DNA of 25,168 bases from Chloroflexota bacterium (GTDB lineage Bacteria > Chloroflexota > Anaerolineae > J102). The notes under the pieces are model-generated. The model saw nothing but the letters and a program-made list of their open reading frames with translations, was not told where the DNA came from and ran no database searches. The stretch covers positions 1 through 25,168 of the forward strand of contig JAADFV010000288.1 of assembly GCA_013152695.1 (NCBI GenBank), written 5' to 3'. Below are positions 5,776-12,885 of this stretch, piece after piece; the first letter of the stretch is position 1, and every line of letters starts with the position of its first letter. The translations under genes and the position numbers were made by a program.

Positions 5776-7473
5776 ATGACCGAACCAACCATTGCGGTAA
5801 CAGATCTGTCCTATCGCTATCGTGGCGAAAAACACTCAGCACTCGACAGCATCACCCTGACGATGAATCGTGGCGAATTTTTGGTCGTCATGGGCGCCAG
5901 CGAAGCCGGAAAAAGTACTCTGGCCGCCTGCATGAATGGTCTTATTCCCCATTTCCACAAAGGACGGCTGAAAGGGAATGTCGTGGTGCTGGAGAGAAAT
6001 ACACGCGAACACAAAGTGGCGGAGATGGCCGAAGTCGTGGGACTTGTGTTTCAGGATTTCGAAGCACAATTGTTTTCTACCAATGTAGAACTAGAGGTAG
6101 CATTTGGACCCGAGAATTTTGGTGTCGATCGTGACGAGATTGAGCGACGTATCGAAGAAAGTCTGGCCTACGTGGGCTTGACAGAGTTTCGGCATCGTTC
6201 GCCTTCCACCCTCTCGGGGGGGCAAAAGCAAAAATTGGCCATTGCCTCGGTGTTGGCTATGCATCCCCAGGTGTTGGTGATGGATGAGCCCACAACTGAT
6301 CTCGATCCCATCAGTAAACTCGGTATTTTCGAAATTACCAACCAGTTGCGCAAACGCGATGACATTACCCTCATTGTCGTGGAACATGAAACCGAAGAAG
6401 TGCTGCAAGCCGATCGAGTTGCACTCATTAAGGAGGGAAAGCTGGTCAAGATCGGTGATGTCCGTTCGATTCTGCAAGAGGTGGAGCTTCTGGAATCGTT
6501 GGGGGTAATGCCCCTGGGTATTCCCCGCTTCTTCAAAGCGATGGGCTACACGGAGCTGCCTCTGACGCCTGACGAAGGTGTGGAAGCATTCAAGCAGGCA
6601 GGCTGGAGTATCGACGAAAGCGCCTACGAGACCCTCGTTGCTGAGGATCAGGCGGCGATCGATGCCCTTACCCAGCCCATCATCCAGTGCCATGGCCTCG
6701 AACATACCTATCCCAACGGCGTCAAAGCCCTACAGGGGATTGATATGGAGATTATGGCTGGAGATATGGTTGCCATCGTCGGGCAAAATGGCAGTGGCAA
6801 AACCACTCTGGCCAAACACTTCAACGCCCTCCTCTTCCCCACCTCCGGCGAAGTATTTGTGCACGGCAAGCCCACGAAAGAACAAGGGGTATTCAAAATT
6901 GGCCAAAAAATCGGCTATGTTTTTCAAAATCCTGACCATCAGATCTTCTCGGAAACCGTCTTTGACGAGGTTGCATTCAGTCCCCGACTGCGGAAACTAC
7001 CGGAAGACGAGGTAAAAATACGGGTGACCAAAGCGCTAGAGGCCGTAGGATTGGCAGGTATGGAAGAAGAAGACCCCTTCAGCCTCACCAAGAGCGGTCG
7101 CCAACGCGTAGCTGTCGCCTCGGTGCTGGCAGCACAACCCGAAGTTCTTATCCTCGATGAGCCCACCACCGGCCTCGATTATGCAGAACAGCGCGGCCTG
7201 ATGGACATGGTAAGGCAGCTCAACGAAAATGGCAGTACCATCATTTTTGTCACCCATCACATGTGGGTTGTGGCCGAATACGCCCAAAAAGTATATGTCA
7301 TCAAAGATGGTAAAGTCTTTCTGCAGGGAACGACACGGGATGTGTTTTCCCATGAGGAAAAGTTGATGGAAGCCTCATTGCGGCCACCCCATTTCGTGCA
7401 ATTTGCCAACCGTCTAGGCAAAACCTTCCTTACCCCCGAAGAACTAAAGCACTGTTTGCACCTCGGAGCCTGA
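5776..7473 (+). CDS. ECF transporter duplicated ATPase (two fused EcfA/CbiO domains)
   Basis: A 565-residue cytoplasmic ATPase with two ABC domains in one chain, the energising part of an energy-coupling-factor transporter. Domain 1 has Walker A GASEAGKS (40-47), signature LSGGQ (146-150), Walker B VLVMDEP and the switch His in VVEHE. Domain 2 has Walker A GQNGSGKT (336-343), Q-loop VFQNPDHQIF, Walker B VLILDEP and VTHH. Its signature is degenerate: LTKSGRQR (437-444) where LSGGQRQR is expected, so one of the two ATP sites may be impaired or specialised. I chose ATG 5776 because GAGA lies 6 bases upstream; an in-frame GTG at 5764 would add four residues without a ribosome-binding site. It is followed 2 bp later by the T component. 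From memory, similar duplicated ATPases occur in the predicted methionine-related ECF transporters (Mts). Confidence 0.92.
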   Translation: MTEPTIAVTDLSYRYRGEKHSALDSITLTMNRGEFLVVMGASEAGKSTLAACMNGLIPHFHKGRLKGNVVVLERNTREHKVAEMAEVVGLVFQDFEAQLFSTNVELEVAFGPENFGVDRDEIERRIEESLAYVGLTEFRHRSPSTLSGGQKQKLAIASVLAMHPQVLVMDEPTTDLDPISKLGIFEITNQLRKRDDITLIVVEHETEEVLQADRVALIKEGKLVKIGDVRSILQEVELLESLGVMPLGIPRFFKAMGYTELPLTPDEGVEAFKQAGWSIDESAYETLVAEDQAAIDALTQPIIQCHGLEHTYPNGVKALQGIDMEIMAGDMVAIVGQNGSGKTTLAKHFNALLFPTSGEVFVHGKPTKEQGVFKIGQKIGYVFQNPDHQIFSETVFDEVAFSPRLRKLPEDEVKIRVTKALEAVGLAGMEEEDPFSLTKSGRQRVAVASVLAAQPEVLILDEPTTGLDYAEQRGLMDMVRQLNENGSTIIFVTHHMWVVAEYAQKVYVIKDGKVFLQGTTRDVFSHEEKLMEASLRPPHFVQFANRLGKTFLTPEELKHCLHLGA

Positions 7474-7475
7474 GC

Positions 7476-8258
7476 ATGGATGCCGAACTTTATCTCGATT
7501 ACAATACCGTTATTCACCGCCTGGATGCCCGCACAAAAATAATTCTCTTTGTGTATTCCTTTGTTGTCCTCGTCCTTTTCGAAAATCCCTTGTGGATGCT
7601 TCCCATCGCTTTCCTCATCGTCTTGCATACGGCACTGGCTCGCTCATGGCGCAATCTCTGGCGTATTCGTGTTTTGCTTACCATTCTTACCGTATGGAGC
7701 CTGATTCTTTGGAATTTCTTTGCCAGTGGTGATACCCACTTGTTCTGGCTGTTCGATAAAGAATCTATGCTATTCAGCGTCGCCCGTACCATGCTCCTTT
7801 TGCTCATGATCACCTCCGGTGTCAACCTTATCAGCACTACCCGCAACGAGGAACTGGTACTAGGAATGATTCGCCTGGGCCTCCCCTACCGTGTAGGCTT
7901 TGCCATTTCTACGGCCCTGCGTCTGGTGCCGACCACTGCTGCCAGCTTACAGACTATCGCCCAAGCCCAACGCAGTCGCGGCCTCGACCTGGATAGCGGC
8001 AACATTCTGGAACGTATGCGCAAATACGTGCCCCTCTTGATTCCGGTCTTCATTACCACCATTCGCAGTACCAATGTATTCGGTATGGCTCTGGAATCCA
8101 AGGGTTTTGGTGCGCGCGAAGACCGCACCTTTTATTTGCAATTGAACATGACAATACTTGACCGCATCCTCCTCATTGGGGGGGGGCTGTTTGTCCTCAT
8201 ATCTATTTACCTCAAGCTTCGCGGCTATGGCGATATCCCCGGCCTCAGCCGTTTCTAA
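7476..8258 (+). CDS. ECF transporter transmembrane component EcfT (CbiQ family)
   Basis: A 260-residue polytopic membrane protein that couples the two ATPase domains to a substrate-binding S protein. It has four or more hydrophobic segments (about 22-58, 66-82, 100-125, 225-245) and a long cytoplasmic helical region. The two Ala/Ser-Arg-Gly coupling motifs of the family are seen as AQRSRGLDLDSGN (about 163-175) and ALESKGFGA (about 204-212); in known structures these helices dock on the ATPase. The ATG lies 2 bp after the ATPase stop, with GGAG about 8 bases upstream. Its S partner is most likely the QueT-family protein encoded at 10661, which has no other energising module in the window. Confidence 0.92.
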   Translation: MDAELYLDYNTVIHRLDARTKIILFVYSFVVLVLFENPLWMLPIAFLIVLHTALARSWRNLWRIRVLLTILTVWSLILWNFFASGDTHLFWLFDKESMLFSVARTMLLLLMITSGVNLISTTRNEELVLGMIRLGLPYRVGFAISTALRLVPTTAASLQTIAQAQRSRGLDLDSGNILERMRKYVPLLIPVFITTIRSTNVFGMALESKGFGAREDRTFYLQLNMTILDRILLIGGGLFVLISIYLKLRGYGDIPGLSRF

Positions 8259-8283
8259 GAGCGCCTCTCATAAACTTGCGCTC
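8259..8283 (+). repeat. Short hairpin after the EcfT gene
   Basis: GAGCGC (8259-8264) and GCGCTC (8278-8283) can pair across a 13-base loop directly after the EcfT stop. There is no T run after it, so it is at best a weak pause or processing site in the 141-bp gap before the isomerase gene. Confidence 0.25.
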
Positions 8284-8399
8284 AGTCCCATAACGGACGA
8301 AAATCCTTTGTAGAAACACCTGACAAGACTGTTCTAATCCTCTTGTGCCTTGGCGAGAGACCATTAAAGAAGTCTCAGATAATCCCCAGGAGCTTGACA

Positions 8400-9440
8400 A
8401 TGCCAAACATCAGCGAAATCAATAATCTGCTCCCCTGGTTGTTGCGTCGCGAAAATGTGGCCCGTTATGAAGATGGTGTCGTCTGGATTGGCGATCGCCG
8501 CAAATATCCCTTTGCCAGGGAATTTGTACGCTGTGAGGATGTGGAAGAGGTGGCACGGGCTATCGAGGAAATGGTCACCCAGGGGGGTGGTCCCTGGGTT
8601 GCAGCCTGTTTTGGCATGGCCATGGCCGCCCGCCAGGTTGCCGGTAAACAACCCGACGAGGTACGAACAGCGCTTGCTGCTGCCCGCACCCGCCTCGTCA
8701 ACACCCGCCCCACCAATACAGCTCTCGCCCGCCGTCTCGACGACTTGATGCAAGTGGCCCTTCAAGCCCTGGCGCAAGAAAAATCGGTCGAACAAGCTAT
8801 TCTCGATTGGCTGGAAGCTTTGCGCGATCGCGGTTACGAGGATTATGCTGTCCGCGCCGGTTACGGTGCCAGCCTTATGGATGACGGTGATGGCATTCTT
8901 ACCATGTGCTTTGCCGAAACCGCCTTCATTCTCAGCCTGGCTTTTGCCCAGCAGCAAGGCAAACATCTGCATGTCTTCACACCGGAGACACGGCCCTATT
9001 TGCAAGGAGCACGGCTTACCGCCCCTAGCATCCACGAACTAGGTATTCCCGTCACCGTCATCACCGATAACATGCCCGCCTACGTCATGTCCCAAGGCAA
9101 AATCCAGAAATACTTTACGGCCGCCGACCTTATCACTCTTGATGGACATGTCGTCAATAAAATCGGCACCTTTCAAAATGCGATCACCGCCCAGTACCAT
9201 GGCATCCCTTACTTTGCCTTCATGTGGGGAGTCGATCGCGAAAGTCCAAATCGAGCCTCCATCGTCATCGAAGAAAGGGATGGGCGCGAAGTGAAGAAGT
9301 GTCGCGGCCTGCCCACAACTCTCGACGATATTCCTGCCTACTACCCCGCCTTTGACATCACCCCTCCCCACCTTGTCGCCGGAATTATCACCCGCAAAGG
9401 TGTGTTAAGCCCTTACGATCTGGCGAATCAACTCACATAA
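8400..9440 (+). CDS. MtnA-like isomerase (aIF-2B/MTR-1-P isomerase family)
   Basis: A 346-residue cytoplasmic protein of the 5-methylthioribose-1-phosphate isomerase / eIF-2B alpha family. The ATG at 8400 is set by a good AGGAG 7 bases upstream; an in-frame TTG at 8343 is unlikely. The presumed catalytic pair is present: Cys170 (ILTMCFAETAF) and Asp243 (FTAADLI), with Lys254 in VNKIGTF and Arg103 in NTRPT. The C-terminal YPAFDITPPHLVAGIITRKG matches MtnA well. However, the phosphate-contacting loop RGAPAIG of MtnA is replaced by QGGGPWV (61-67), losing its Arg, and GADRIAANGD is replaced by AADLITLDGH. It may therefore isomerise a different aldose phosphate or an unphosphorylated sugar. It lies 13 bp before the MtnP-like gene, whose product would supply its usual substrate. 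Confidence 0.85.
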   Translation: MPNISEINNLLPWLLRRENVARYEDGVVWIGDRRKYPFAREFVRCEDVEEVARAIEEMVTQGGGPWVAACFGMAMAARQVAGKQPDEVRTALAAARTRLVNTRPTNTALARRLDDLMQVALQALAQEKSVEQAILDWLEALRDRGYEDYAVRAGYGASLMDDGDGILTMCFAETAFILSLAFAQQQGKHLHVFTPETRPYLQGARLTAPSIHELGIPVTVITDNMPAYVMSQGKIQKYFTAADLITLDGHVVNKIGTFQNAITAQYHGIPYFAFMWGVDRESPNRASIVIEERDGREVKKCRGLPTTLDDIPAYYPAFDITPPHLVAGIITRKGVLSPYDLANQLT

Positions 9441-9453
9441 GGTTGCAGCATCC

Positions 9454-10251
9454 ATGTCCACCGCCATCATTGCTGGTACCGATATTTACCAAATCCCTGG
9501 CCTTACCTTCAGCACAAAAACCATCCAGACTCCCTACGGCGATGCCATCGTTAACATCGGTGAGGGGGAATACAGCGATCTTGTCTTTCTCCCCCGGCAC
9601 GGCCCCCGGCACACCGTCCCTCCCCATCGCATCAACTACCGCGCCAATATCATGGCCCTGCAGATGCTGGGCGTACAAAGCATCCTTGCCGCCTATGCTG
9701 TCGGCTCCATTCAACCCGATATCCCCCCAAAATCACTGGTTATCCTGGATGATTTTCTTGACTTTACCTCCGATCGCCCCTTCACTTTTTACGAAGGCGG
9801 CGACACCGGCCTTGCTCATACGATAATGAGCCCACCCTATTGCCCCACTCTCAACCAACGACTGCGCGAACTGGCGCCCGAATTTGAGCTTGAATTGCGC
9901 CCAGGCGGTACTTACGTGTGTACCAATGGCCCCCGCTTCGAGACACCGGGAGAAATTCGCATGTACCGGCAACTCGGTGGTGATGTCGTTGGCATGACGG
10001 GCGCCCAGGAAGCCACGCTGGCGCGTGAGTTAGGAATACACTTTGCCGGAGTGGCTCTTTCCATCAACTGGGCCGCCGGCATCGAATCTACCATCCGTAT
10101 TGTCAACGAAGGCCAAGAGGTGATCCGGGCACGTTTACTGAAACTCTTTCTCAAAACCCTGGCGACCACCCACGATTTTTCCTGCCCCTGCCACCACTCT
10201 GTTCTCTTCACACACCGTCCTGTCGCTAAATCCACCCAAATGCATGCTTAA
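9454..10251 (+). CDS. MTA/MTI phosphorylase (MtnP-like, PNP superfamily)
   Basis: A 265-residue cytoplasmic nucleoside phosphorylase of the PNP/MTAP family, expected to split a 5'-methylthio-nucleoside with phosphate into a purine base and 5-methylthioribose-1-phosphate. Family landmarks are FLPRHGPRHTVPPHRINYRA (45-64), YAVGSI, the GTYVCTNGPRFETPGEIRMY block (152-171) and VGMTGAQEATLARELG. The phosphate loop is AGTD (7-10) rather than GGSG, keeping the hydroxyl residue Thr9. The purine-recognition segment reads SINWAAGI with Asn205 and Ala207. Adenine-specific MTAPs have Asp residues there, while 6-oxopurine enzymes such as methylthioinosine phosphorylase have Asn. A methylthioinosine substrate is thus possible. 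The last 25 residues (FSCPCHHSVLF...) are an unusual tail. It is followed by a 409-bp gap before the ECF S gene. Confidence 0.85.
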   Translation: MSTAIIAGTDIYQIPGLTFSTKTIQTPYGDAIVNIGEGEYSDLVFLPRHGPRHTVPPHRINYRANIMALQMLGVQSILAAYAVGSIQPDIPPKSLVILDDFLDFTSDRPFTFYEGGDTGLAHTIMSPPYCPTLNQRLRELAPEFELELRPGGTYVCTNGPRFETPGEIRMYRQLGGDVVGMTGAQEATLARELGIHFAGVALSINWAAGIESTIRIVNEGQEVIRARLLKLFLKTLATTHDFSCPCHHSVLFTHRPVAKSTQMHA

Positions 10252-10660
10252 CTATCAAGCACGACTTTGACAGAGAAACTAACAAAAAACCAAACCGAAC
10301 AATACTCGATTCCCTTTTTAGTGCCTGTTTATTATTCAACATCCTCTTGCAAATTACGATAACCTGCCGAAAGATGAACATCACGGAGGTGCTTATGGTA
10401 TTGATTTCCTGAGCAAACAGAATAGTCCTGGCGAGCTTTTATGCCGTTTTGCATGTCAGAGTCAATCGGGCCGATTCACAGTTCTTCATCATTTTTTTAC
10501 GACAGGAGAATCTGTCAGGCTTTCACAGACGCATTTTTTACTACGAATCCCCGTTGTTGGCAACGGCATTGCAGAAAAACGGCTATAAAAATCTGACTGA
10601 CACGCACCCCATTCATTCACATTGTTTTTTCATTCCATTTTTCCTCCGGAGGGAGCTATC
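10252..10660 (+). promoter_or_regulatory. 409-bp leader of the ECF S-component gene, several inverted repeats
   Basis: This non-coding stretch is long for an otherwise compact + strand block. It contains an odd-centred palindrome AATCGG-G-CCGATT (10464-10476), a hairpin GACAG/CTGTC (10501-10516, 6-base loop), a hairpin CCGTTG-TTGG-CAACGG (10551-10566), and a TATAAA box (about 10585) without a good -35. A strong GGAGG (10385-10389) sits 5 bases before a five-codon frame MVLIS (10395-10412). Finally, CCTCCGGAGG (10643-10652) overlaps the ribosome-binding site of the S gene. The sequence does not match any riboswitch class I can recognise, including SAM-I. A 71-residue frame here (10449-10664) has no coding character. 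A regulatory leader is inferred, not shown. Confidence 0.4.
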
Positions 10661-11497
10661 ATGAAAGAAGTCGTACGTATGTGGCAAAACACCCGGATGA
10701 TTATCCTGGTGGCATTGTCAGCAGCGATTTACGCTGCATTTCTGATCGCCTTTAAGGGTGGTATCGTCATCGTTCCCGGCATCACCGAGGTTCGCCCAGC
10801 CAATGTCTTTCCTCCTATTTTTGGCCTGCTCTTTGGCCCCGCCGGTGCTTGGGGATCAGCCATCGGTAATCTCATTGGCGATATTTTTGGTGGCACCTTT
10901 GGCCCTGGCTCCATCTTTGGCTTCTTCGGCAACTTCGCCCTCGCTTTCGTCCCCTACAAAATGTGGGGCGCCTGCTTCGGCCTTGTCTCCAAAGATGATA
11001 TTGCCCCCACCACCAACACCCTCAAAAAGCTTATCGCCTTCGAATTGGTCACCCTCATTGCTTCGGCGGCATGTGCCGTCATTATCGCCTGGTACCTCGA
11101 CCTGACCGGTATCGTTCCTTACGCCTTCCTGGCCATTACGATCACCGTCAACAACTTTGTGGCCAGCGTCGTGTTGGGCCCCATCCTCCTCACCTTGCTC
11201 TATCCTCGTATCAAACGCTGGGGCCTGATGTGGACCGATATCATGGATAAGGACGACGTCGCTAAGGGCTTTTCGCCCCAGTTGGGCTCAATCCTGATGA
11301 CAGTTGGAGCCTTAGGCGGCCTTATCATCGGCATCCTCGTCGCAGTTAGCGCTGCCGGACAGGAAATTTACGGTTTTAGCGGCGCTACACAGAACACAGC
11401 CGTGTGGCTGGTCGTCTTGCCCTTCCTCATTTTGATGATCGTGGGAGGCTTCATGCTTTCGGGCCAGGAGCAATTCGTCGAAGAAGATTGGGACTAA
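10661..11497 (+). CDS. ECF transporter S component, QueT family
   Basis: A 278-residue membrane protein with six or seven hydrophobic segments, the substrate-binding part of an ECF transporter. The block ITEVRPANVFPPIFGLLFGP (41-60), followed by GSAIGNLIGDIF, matches the QueT family signature. QueT proteins are named for queuosine precursors, but family members also occur in predicted methionine/methylthio-compound ECF systems, and this one lies between an MtnP-like and a Cys/Met PLP enzyme. I chose ATG 10661 because GGAGGG ends 7 bases upstream; an in-frame TTG at 10622 adds 13 poor residues. Family members are typically near 170-200 residues. The extra C-terminal part (about 205-278) holds an acidic cytoplasmic loop (DIMDKDDVAKG) and two further hydrophobic segments. 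Its energising partners are probably encoded at 5776-8258. Confidence 0.8.
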   Translation: MKEVVRMWQNTRMIILVALSAAIYAAFLIAFKGGIVIVPGITEVRPANVFPPIFGLLFGPAGAWGSAIGNLIGDIFGGTFGPGSIFGFFGNFALAFVPYKMWGACFGLVSKDDIAPTTNTLKKLIAFELVTLIASAACAVIIAWYLDLTGIVPYAFLAITITVNNFVASVVLGPILLTLLYPRIKRWGLMWTDIMDKDDVAKGFSPQLGSILMTVGALGGLIIGILVAVSAAGQEIYGFSGATQNTAVWLVVLPFLILMIVGGFMLSGQEQFVEEDWD

Positions 11498-11519
11498 CAA
11501 CCCCTTATCCTCGGCAACA

Positions 11520-11546
11520 CGCAGCAATCTGATACACGTTGCTGCG
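11520..11546 (+). repeat. Hairpin 1 upstream of the PLP enzyme
   Basis: CGCAGCAA (11520-11527) pairs perfectly with TTGCTGCG (11539-11546) across an 11-base loop, 22 bases after the ECF S-component stop. No T run follows, so it is not a canonical intrinsic terminator; it could be a transcript 3' end or part of a leader. Confidence 0.4.
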
Positions 11547-11573
11547 GTATTCTCGTTCATCTTTCCAGCTTTC

Positions 11574-11607
11574 CAGGGTGAGTTGCCATCTCCGGTAACT
11601 CACCCTG
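11574..11607 (+). terminator. Hairpin 2: 11-bp perfect stem (attenuator or terminator-like)
   Basis: CAGGGTGAGTT (11574-11584) and AACTCACCCTG (11597-11607) form a perfect 11-bp stem with a 12-base loop. It ends 24 bases before the ATG of the PLP enzyme. It lacks a following T tract, so factor-independent termination is uncertain. Its place between two genes of a likely common pathway makes attenuation, an operator or an mRNA boundary all possible. Confidence 0.45.
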
Positions 11608-11631
11608 AGTCCATTTATCCTCAGAGCTCAT

Positions 11632-12885
11632 ATGACTACCCTTTCCGCCCAATCCGGCCTTAGTACGATCGTCACCCATTATCAAGAAGGCGATAATCCC
11701 CTCAACGCCCACATCACCCCCATCTACCAAACGTCCACTTTCAGTTTTCCGGATGTGGCCACAGCGAAACGGGTCTTCGCTGGCGAAGAGAAAGGCTACA
11801 TCTATTCCCGCGCCGGCAATCCCAACGCCACACAATTGGCGCAAAAAATCGCCTATCTCGAAGGCCTGGATCTGATCCGCCAGCAGCCCGAGCGAGCGCC
11901 TGAGGAAATCGTCTTTGGTCGGGTCACAGCCTCTGGTATGGCTGCTATCAGCTCGGCGATTTTGGGGCGCGTGCAGGCGGGACAGACCGTCATCAGCCAG
12001 CGTCATCTCTATGGGAATGCTTATCGCTTCTTCAACGAAGTTGCTCCTCGTCTAAACATCAATACGGTTTGGGTAGACGATATCTCGGCGGAGGGCTGGC
12101 AGGCAGCCTTTGCTGCCCATCCTGAGGCTGTCATTGCCTATGTGGAAACGCCGGCCAATCCAACCATGGACATTATCGACATGGCCGCCGTATGTGAAAT
12201 CGCCCATACTCACCAGGCTTGGGTCATCGTCGACAACACCTTCGCTACCCCTTATCACCAACGTCCTCTTTCTTTCGGCTGCGAGATTGTCGTCCATTCC
12301 ACCACCAAATACCTTACCGGCCATGGTCTACTCATCGGTGGGGCCATTGTCAGCAGCGAGCAAGACTTCATGACTGCTCCTCAAGATGGCGTAGCTCTCA
12401 TGATGCGTGTCATGGGCCCTGCAGTCAGTCCCTTCGACGCCTGGCTTGGTAATATCGGCCTCAAGACCTTCGAGCTACGTATGCAACGCCATGCCGAAAA
12501 TGCCATGGCTATCGCCCAATGGCTTCAGGAGCAGCCCCAAGTCGAACGCGTCCACTACCCCGGCCTTCCTTCACACCCCGGCCACGCCATCGCCTGCCAA
12601 CAGATGTTCAACGGCTTCAGTGGCATGATTTCCTTTGAGCTCAAAGGTGGTTATGATGCCGGTGTCGCCCTTATGAACCACGTGCGCCTGGCCACTCTTG
12701 CCGTGAGTTTGGGCAATGTCGACACCCTGATCGAGCATCCTGCCAGCATGACCCATGCCAGCGTCCCTCCTGAACAGCGACTGAAGATCGGAATTAGCGA
12801 CGGTCTTGTTCGCTTTTCCGTAGGCATCGAAAATGTCCAGGATATCATCGCTGATTTGGAACAGGCTTTGCAGGCCGCCCTCTAA
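11632..12885 (+). CDS. Cys/Met metabolism PLP-dependent enzyme (trans-sulfuration family)
   Basis: A 417-residue PLP enzyme of the cystathionine gamma-synthase / gamma-lyase / O-acylhomoserine sulfhydrylase family. The PLP Lys is Lys226 in VVHSTTKYLTGHG. Other landmarks are YSRAGNPNATQLA, the substrate-binding ASGMAAI, VETPANPTMDI, VDNTFATPYHQRPL, SPFDAWLGNIGLKTFELRMQRH and the C-terminal HPASMTHASVP...SVGIE. The Cys that marks many methionine gamma-lyases (LYGCT) is absent; here the segment reads LYGNAYRFF, so a lyase call is not supported. A short insert (DLIRQQPERAPEE, about 81-93) lies before the ASGM motif. The context with methylthioribose salvage fits reassimilation of methanethiol or sulfide onto O-acetylhomoserine (MetY-type), but gamma-synthase activity is equally possible. 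Confidence 0.8.
   Translation: MTTLSAQSGLSTIVTHYQEGDNPLNAHITPIYQTSTFSFPDVATAKRVFAGEEKGYIYSRAGNPNATQLAQKIAYLEGLDLIRQQPERAPEEIVFGRVTASGMAAISSAILGRVQAGQTVISQRHLYGNAYRFFNEVAPRLNINTVWVDDISAEGWQAAFAAHPEAVIAYVETPANPTMDIIDMAAVCEIAHTHQAWVIVDNTFATPYHQRPLSFGCEIVVHSTTKYLTGHGLLIGGAIVSSEQDFMTAPQDGVALMMRVMGPAVSPFDAWLGNIGLKTFELRMQRHAENAMAIAQWLQEQPQVERVHYPGLPSHPGHAIACQQMFNGFSGMISFELKGGYDAGVALMNHVRLATLAVSLGNVDTLIEHPASMTHASVPPEQRLKIGISDGLVRFSVGIENVQDIIADLEQALQAAL

Follow-up and report, generated by a model that had tools for sequence, protein, structure and literature searches.

A conserved ECF transporter operon suggests a dedicated route for uptake and breakdown of an S-adenosylmethionine-derived nucleoside in Chloroflexota

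Positions 5776-12885 of a 25,168-nucleotide stretch from a Chloroflexota bacterium (contig JAADFV010000288.1, hereafter the window) carry, all on the forward strand, genes for a fused EcfA-A' double ATPase, an EcfT protein, an MtnA-like isomerase, an MtnP-like phosphorylase, a QueT-family S protein and a Cys/Met-metabolism pyridoxal phosphate (PLP) enzyme, as a first-pass annotation had observed and as we confirm here. This operon, whose energy-coupling factor (ECF) and salvage genes would be co-transcribed, suggests a dedicated uptake-and-breakdown route for a nucleoside derived from S-adenosylmethionine (SAM). The reading that we favour, with a probability of about one half, is that the ECF system imports a purine nucleoside that derives from SAM and is modified at its 5' position, and that import is coupled in the Chloroflexota to a breakdown that resembles the dihydroxyacetone phosphate (DHAP) shunt. 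S would bind a nucleoside of the 5'-deoxy or 5'-thio type and A-A'-T would power its uptake. Inside the cell the compound would be handled in its 6-oxopurine form: a deaminase of the methylthioadenosine/S-adenosylhomocysteine (MTA/SAH) type would produce the inosine-type nucleoside, the MtnP-like enzyme would split it by phosphorolysis into hypoxanthine and a 5-modified ribose-1-phosphate, the MtnA paralogue (termed here QGG type) would turn the latter into a ribulose-1-phosphate, and a class II aldolase would cleave this to DHAP and an aldehyde. We infer the identity of the transported compound, the order of the reactions and the aldol step.

By the features tested, the window encodes a complete ECF transporter. 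EcfA-A' (5776..7473, open frame from GTG 5764) contains two ATPase domains (PF00005 in two stretches; TIGR04520, 479 bits), EcfT (7476..8258) is a CbiQ-type T protein (PF02361, 95.7 bits), and S (10661..11497) matches PF06177 with 63.1 bits (cut-off 33.7) and adopts the S-component fold over residues 3-186. The double ATPase, the CbiQ-type T protein and this S fold are shared with other ECF transporters (4hzu, ThiT, RibU, FolT). The second half of EcfA-A' has a degenerate ABC signature, LTKSG instead of LSGGQ in the window, and a degenerate form (LTKSG, MTKSG or LTKGE) is found in 35/35 aligned EcfA-A' proteins, the window's included; because this degeneracy is conserved, the pair of ATP sites may include a weak one. 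MtsTUV is a predicted ECF system linked to a SAM riboswitch. The ECF systems in the abstracts that we found handle micronutrients, among them vitamins, cofactors and heme, and a search of the open-licence literature, which mostly leaves out subscription journals, listed no ECF importer for MTA-type nucleosides.

The tie between this transporter and MtnP/MtnA-type enzymes, proposed from the window alone, is borne out by the profile scores and by relatives. Scanning GTDB species genomes with an S alignment gave 41 loci (L numbers below are our handles for loci, G numbers for genomes), whose genes were tallied by tblastn. The gene order is kept far beyond the window's genome: EcfA and EcfT are both present in 36 of the 41 loci, an MtnP-like gene in 35 and an MtnA-like gene in 32, while a deaminase-type (MTA/SAH-type) amidohydrolase lies downstream of S in 29 and an RpiR/SIS-type regulator heads the block upstream in 14. 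Thus, of the six families expected to co-occur, A, T, S, MtnA and MtnP do; the PLP enzyme does not, being an occasional partner near S in 3/41 loci (L002, L007, L010), among which L002, a close relative, has it after S as in the window. In 10/41 loci S has a class II aldolase no more than about 6 kb away, and clustering places one somewhere on the stretch in 14 loci; the tally thresholds miss weakly similar aldolases such as that of L013. L031-L033 keep A-T-MtnP-S-deaminase and have a cupin, an SDR protein and the MtnA paralogue further downstream, with an aldolase as the last gene of the group in L032 and L033. Some loci are truncated (L006 and L023 start inside the operon, L030 stops just past S), and a few labels of metagenome-assembled genomes are doubtful and perhaps reflect misbinning (L005 Desulfuromonadales, L018 Rhodobacterales, L030 Syntrophobacterales). 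In a 199-genome class sample, S matched in 30 genomes; among the 34 matches listed, 14 were strong, with at least 124 bits.

Public annotations call the relatives of S 'QueT transporter family protein', and with the PF06177 match this would agree with S being QueT proper, a queuosine-precursor transporter with incidental enzyme neighbours. The QueT/QrtT ECF transporters do have an S of the same Pfam family, but the window S has different gene partners and, in its structure model, two extra C-terminal helices; known QueT proteins are shorter. No riboswitch was detected at Rfam gathering scores in the window and seven relatives, nor any queuosine gene in the selection of neighbouring open reading frames (ORFs) that was scanned; the link to queuosine genes that the first-pass annotation had named as fatal to its idea was not seen in what was covered, and neither was any sign of a preQ1 riboswitch. 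Together with the steady linkage of S to enzymes of SAM by-products in two phyla, this absence from what was scanned led us to reject a queuosine transporter, which we consider very improbable.

The isomerase and phosphorylase encoded between T and S had been taken for MtnA and MtnP, and their sequences indicate that both are divergent paralogues of these enzymes. The isomerase (8400..9440, open frame from TTG 8343; IF-2B family, PF01008) scores above the cut-off of PRK05720, and below that of TIGR00512 (218.7 bits, cut-off 279). Genome-wide counts here and below concern the genomes of relatives, not that of the window, and cover 33 of the 41 loci for MtnA, MTA phosphorylase (MTAP), aldolase and acireductone dioxygenase (ARD), and 34 for adenosylhomocysteinase (AHCY); one of the sequence comparisons scored only the 8000 candidates with the most shared words. 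A canonical MtnA passes the TIGR00512 cut-off in 27/33 genomes, and in 30/33 there is a further match scoring about 188-216 bits, which is the operon copy wherever the places were compared. In a tree of 57 MtnA-type proteins (midpoint-rooted, with a long-branch warning above all for L103), 33 operon copies form one clade (99/97) apart from 19 canonical proteins. Fixed differences separate 30/30 operon rows from 19/19 canonical rows: in the operon copies RGA has Q in place of R and G in place of A; the N and G that follow the catalytic Cys are replaced by F and E, with a deletion of about eight residues behind them; and DQ is changed to DR. This count omits L031-L033 and L057 (too-short alignment), and its canonical rows come from 19 of 20 fetched loci; L031-L033 have Q-S-G at the RGA site and share most of the other changes. 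Cys, Asp, NK, RPT and QGARL are retained in the operon rows shown, and the window isomerase keeps Cys 189 and Asp 262 (numbering of the ORF from 8343), which we take to be the catalytic residues of MtnA, with RGA presumably its substrate loop. In the MtnA of B. subtilis, the substrate is bound by RGA, R94, Q199 and NK. The model of the window isomerase (pLDDT 90.7) has MtnA, 2yvk, as its closest fold.

Other MtnA-type genes were encountered in the genomes of relatives. A third type (QGGPP, with IAG after the Cys) occurs in the genomes of L002, L003 and L008 (L108 7046-8068, L109 6454-7512, L110 5955-7028) and is sister to the operon clade; the L110 copy overlaps with a gene of the Mur-ligase type. 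In the genome of the L010 operon, a drd-like cluster (L103 7123-9757, G009:C45) encodes MtnA, MtnP and a class II aldolase, then a dihydroxy-acid dehydratase-type protein; its MtnA has RGS at the loop and falls on the canonical side of the tree on a long, unsure branch. Another cluster, L117 (G002:C35) in the genome of L002, holds an RpiR protein 47% identical to that of the operon, a TIGR00512-type MtnA, an APH-type kinase that is perhaps MtnK-like, Dak1/Dak2 and another ABC ATPase, making a second sugar-phosphate salvage cluster. Finally, four relatives of the window (G001, G002, G003, G007) have two consecutive divergent MtnP-type genes with a class II aldolase (L104-L107).

The operon phosphorylase (9454..10251) scores below the cut-offs of both TIGR01694, the MTAP model (232.2 bits, cut-off 274.85), and PRK09136, the methylthioinosine (MTI) phosphorylase model (212.5 bits, cut-off 223). 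Its best solved relative is 3ozb, which we take to be the MTI phosphorylase of P. aeruginosa. In the base site, Asn205 is found in 36/36 operon MtnP proteins versus Asp in 20/20 canonical MTAPs; Asp at this place is typical of phosphorylases for 6-aminopurines and Asn of those for 6-oxopurines. The operon proteins also lack about six residues of the loop behind the base site of canonical MTAP. A canonical MTAP passes the TIGR01694 cut-off in 24/33 genomes, the operon copies reaching about 205-244 bits. Because canonical MtnA and MTAP coexist with them in so many genomes, the operon copies would serve something else or something extra.

The Asn in the base site, as in 6-oxopurine phosphorylases, would also suit a general purine nucleoside importer, with unmodified inosine or guanosine catabolised via ribulose-1-phosphate, as would the RpiR regulator and the linked aldolase, which scores with a ribulose-1-phosphate aldolase model, below its cut-off. 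In the alignment, however, the operon MtnP has no histidine where the purine nucleoside phosphorylase-like L111 (a tentative assignment) has one, a residue that presumably acts on the 5' hydroxyl; moreover, weaker TIGR01694 matches in the same 33 genomes resemble purine nucleoside phosphorylases, so that further genes of this kind seem present, and the partner enzyme in Rubrobacteria (below) is an AHCY. We find such an importer improbable.

The deaminase linked to most blocks scores 433.8 bits with PRK09045 and 369.3 bits with PRK07228, all below cut-off, and among the solved proteins closest to it are 4f0r, which is named an MTA/SAH deaminase, and 4dyk, which carries the label amidohydrolase; by these similarities the enzyme belongs with the MTA/SAH/5'-deoxyadenosine deaminases. 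The deaminase search took in 14 of the 33 genomes. Long deaminase-type proteins of about 665-710 residues were also seen (L078-L082, L111, L115); a deaminase-phosphorylase fusion was considered for them and rejected, the C-terminal third of the two that were scanned, L078 and L080, having no NCBIfam match.

The window's PLP enzyme (11632..12885; PF01053, 432.7 bits) scores 421.4 bits with TIGR01328, below the cut-off of 549.7, and its best solved relatives are methionine gamma-lyases. Its occurrence close to S in the window, L002, L007 and L010, along with the families of MtnP, MtnA and the deaminase, would fit an MTA or MTI importer feeding methionine salvage proper, in which the PLP enzyme re-uses methanethiol. 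Several observations make this unlikely: canonical MTAP and MtnA are already present in most genomes, the substrate loop of the operon MtnA is altered, the PLP enzyme is confined to those few loci, and the Rubrobacteria partner is AHCY-like, with no phosphorylase found beside it by the queries used. ARD (MtnD, PF03079) was matched in 1/33 genomes, weakly (27.1 bits), as compared with 5/14 control genomes (2 over cut-off). On the strength of the 32/33 genomes with no ARD match, we rejected classical methionine salvage, its oxygen-dependent form being judged by MtnD; the return of the sulfur compound to methionine, as first envisaged, finds no support. Methylthioribose, another substrate initially put forward, is also unlikely because a phosphorylase acts on nucleosides, and we rejected its import, there being no kinase among the recurrent genes.

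An aldolase or DHAP-type shunt, raised at the outset as an option, is a better fit than the classical cycle. The class II aldolase linked to some blocks matches models of fuculose- and ribulose-1-phosphate aldolases, below their cut-offs, and the family is present in 32/33 genomes of relatives, but the latter result carries little weight for reasons given below. In the relatives that have an aldolase near S, the set shares with the DHAP shunt or drd clusters (drdK-drdI-drdA; mtnK-mtnA-ald2 in E. coli) the grouping of an MTAP- or kinase-type enzyme with an MtnA paralogue and a class II aldolase. The Chloroflexota set would be DHAP-shunt-like by resemblance rather than by established membership, and it is distinct from canonical MtnA, MTAP or methionine salvage. 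PMC6079011, PMC10986504 and PMC12632272 describe shunt clusters in which salvage-enzyme paralogues can coexist with canonical ones, and some of which hold sugar transporters or a putative permease. The present block differs from these in having an ECF system with a dedicated S and, in most cases, an amidohydrolase-type deaminase; it has no recurrent kinase, its isomerase is without the RGA loop, and the aldolase is often not adjacent.

Two other known routes are related. The MTA deaminase-MTI phosphorylase-MtnA route of P. aeruginosa uses the same three enzyme types and includes the nearest solved phosphorylase. Its MtnA is canonical and, to our knowledge, it has no linked importer. Deamination and phosphorolysis in this route are described in PMC6302742. 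In the archaeal DadD/S-inosylhomocysteine hydrolase route (M. jannaschii, T. maritima), nucleosides that are by-products of SAM undergo deamination as the first step and are then processed in their inosine forms, according to PMC10978960. In contrast, the Chloroflexota operon employs a phosphorylase together with an isomerase, the Rubrobacteria enzyme is missing two conserved histidines, and both are joined to an importer.

In Rubrobacteria, the same transporter has another partner. S is present in 12 of 39 genomes of the class, at 13 places, and the gene order at 13/13 of these is A-T-S-AHCY (L036, L037, L142-L152). An AHCY was tallied near S in 2/41 loci, and in L037 (Rubrobacter taiwanensis) and L036 (an actinobacterial bin) the AHCY-type protein directly follows S; the 11 further places are L142-L152, two of which have the AHCY cut by the contig end. 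This points to a second enzyme family for adenosine-type thioethers associated with the same transporter, in favour of a SAM-derived nucleoside as its substrate. The ECF-linked AHCY scores 599.9 bits with PRK05476.2-3 (cut-off 275) and 485.3 with TIGR00936 (below the cut-off of 497.6), and carries the NAD motif GYGWCGKG. The catalytic histidine of the HxTxE/HxExK motif is replaced by Pro or Ala in 13/13 ECF-linked AHCYs, giving a base motif [P/A]xExK, as opposed to His in 11/11 others aligned, and a second conserved histidine is Gly or Ala in 11/11 ECF-linked proteins that cover the region, as opposed to His in 10/10 others. According to PMC10978960, enzymes with HxExK favour inosine-type substrates and the His is important for catalysis, and PMC13406329 describes a histidine that protonates the leaving sulfur; we take the latter to be the HxExK histidine that the Rubrobacteria proteins have lost. 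A PF07992 gene follows the Rubrobacteria AHCY in 5/5 cases scanned and is read as thioredoxin reductase-like; considered as a pathway member, it was set aside as an ordinary neighbour.

Import and disposal of SAH or S-inosylhomocysteine (SIH) would explain, with a single substrate, the AHCY partner as well as the set of deaminase, phosphorylase and PLP enzyme. Deamination would be followed by phosphorolysis to S-ribosylhomocysteine-1-phosphate and isomerisation, a gamma-lyase-like PLP enzyme would act on the homocysteine part, and in Rubrobacteria an AHCY/S-inosylhomocysteine hydrolase-like enzyme would take the same substrate; the shortened MtnP loop and altered isomerase could leave room for a larger 5' group. 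We nevertheless regard this as quite unlikely, since the Rubrobacteria AHCY has lost the very histidine taken to protonate the leaving homocysteine, and AHCY is present in 28/34 genomes, with another gene elsewhere besides the linked one in G031 and G034. Furthermore, we know of no precedent for SIH phosphorolysis.

A number of observations weigh against the import of a 5'-modified SAM-derived nucleoside coupled to a DHAP-shunt-like breakdown. No deaminase adjoins S in the window, and none follows it in L002, L003 and L006; L001 and L008 stop less than 300 bases past S. The aldolase is not adjoining in most loci and not clustered in the window, and its family also occurs in 12/14 control genomes, so finding it elsewhere in a genome is hardly informative. 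S also appears in other settings: L038-L040 (S 46-50% identical) have an enolase-superfamily protein and a UxuA-like protein after S, genes of a sugar-acid type, and neither A/T nor salvage enzymes by the queries used; in five genomes (L154-L158), S (about 50% identity) has A and T after it, and the same kind of queries showed no salvage genes; and L153 consists of A-T-S alone. The canonical AHCYs of Rubrobacter also carry HxExK, which means that the base preference is inherited, from an HxExK ancestor retained in these genomes, and that [P/A]xExK is weak independent evidence on the base. Lastly, the residues lost in the isomerase and in the Rubrobacteria AHCY imply that the actual chemistry may be more remote than we assume. 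As to their hosts, L038-L040 come from Zixibacteria, an uncultured bin and Latescibacterota, and L038 and L039 have a galactokinase upstream.

A wider reading can be put forward. Tentatively, and with odds well short of even, there may be a new ECF specificity class, in which this S family would serve 5'-modified 6-oxopurine nucleosides derived from SAM and duplicate SAM-cycle enzymes with altered chemistry would have been recruited independently in two phyla: in the Chloroflexota, the phosphorylase and a QGG-type aldose-1-phosphate isomerase of new specificity; in Rubrobacteria, an AHCY without the two histidines, perhaps a redox-driven nucleoside lyase and not a thioether hydrolase. If the proposed uptake of SAM-derived nucleosides is correct, such waste nucleosides would be scavenged as nutrients via a dedicated ATP-driven importer, a large S family that currently goes under the default name QueT would gain a function, and two new enzyme specificities, those of the QGG-type isomerase and of the His-less AHCY, would become testable.

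The gap between MtnP and S holds a further conserved element. An extended Shine-Dalgarno sequence, AGGAGG in the context AAAGGAGGTG, is present there in 33/36 loci, mostly 80-107 nucleotides before the S start (164 in L002); 1.3 loci would be expected from two-base-block shuffles and 1.8 from random same-strand windows. In comparison stretches, AGGAGG was found in 1/31 before EcfA and 0/28 before the deaminase. No ATG, GTG or TTG lies 3-11 nucleotides after it in 28/33 loci, and in L010 it apparently occurs twice in tandem (9832 and about 9913). It is absent from L006, L018 and the window, which instead has a degenerate form, a Shine-Dalgarno-like CGGAGG followed by a five-codon ORF (10384..10412, forward strand). 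A conserved RNA structure was considered for this gap and rejected, nothing aligning besides the extended Shine-Dalgarno. STAB-SD is an mRNA stabiliser of Bacillus. By analogy, the extended sequence (AAAGGAGG) is possibly a stabiliser of the same type.

In the S-PLP gap of the window lies a perfect 11-bp inverted repeat (11574..11607, arms 11574-11584 and 11597-11607, no strand assigned). No T run follows it, and it may be a terminator or an operator.

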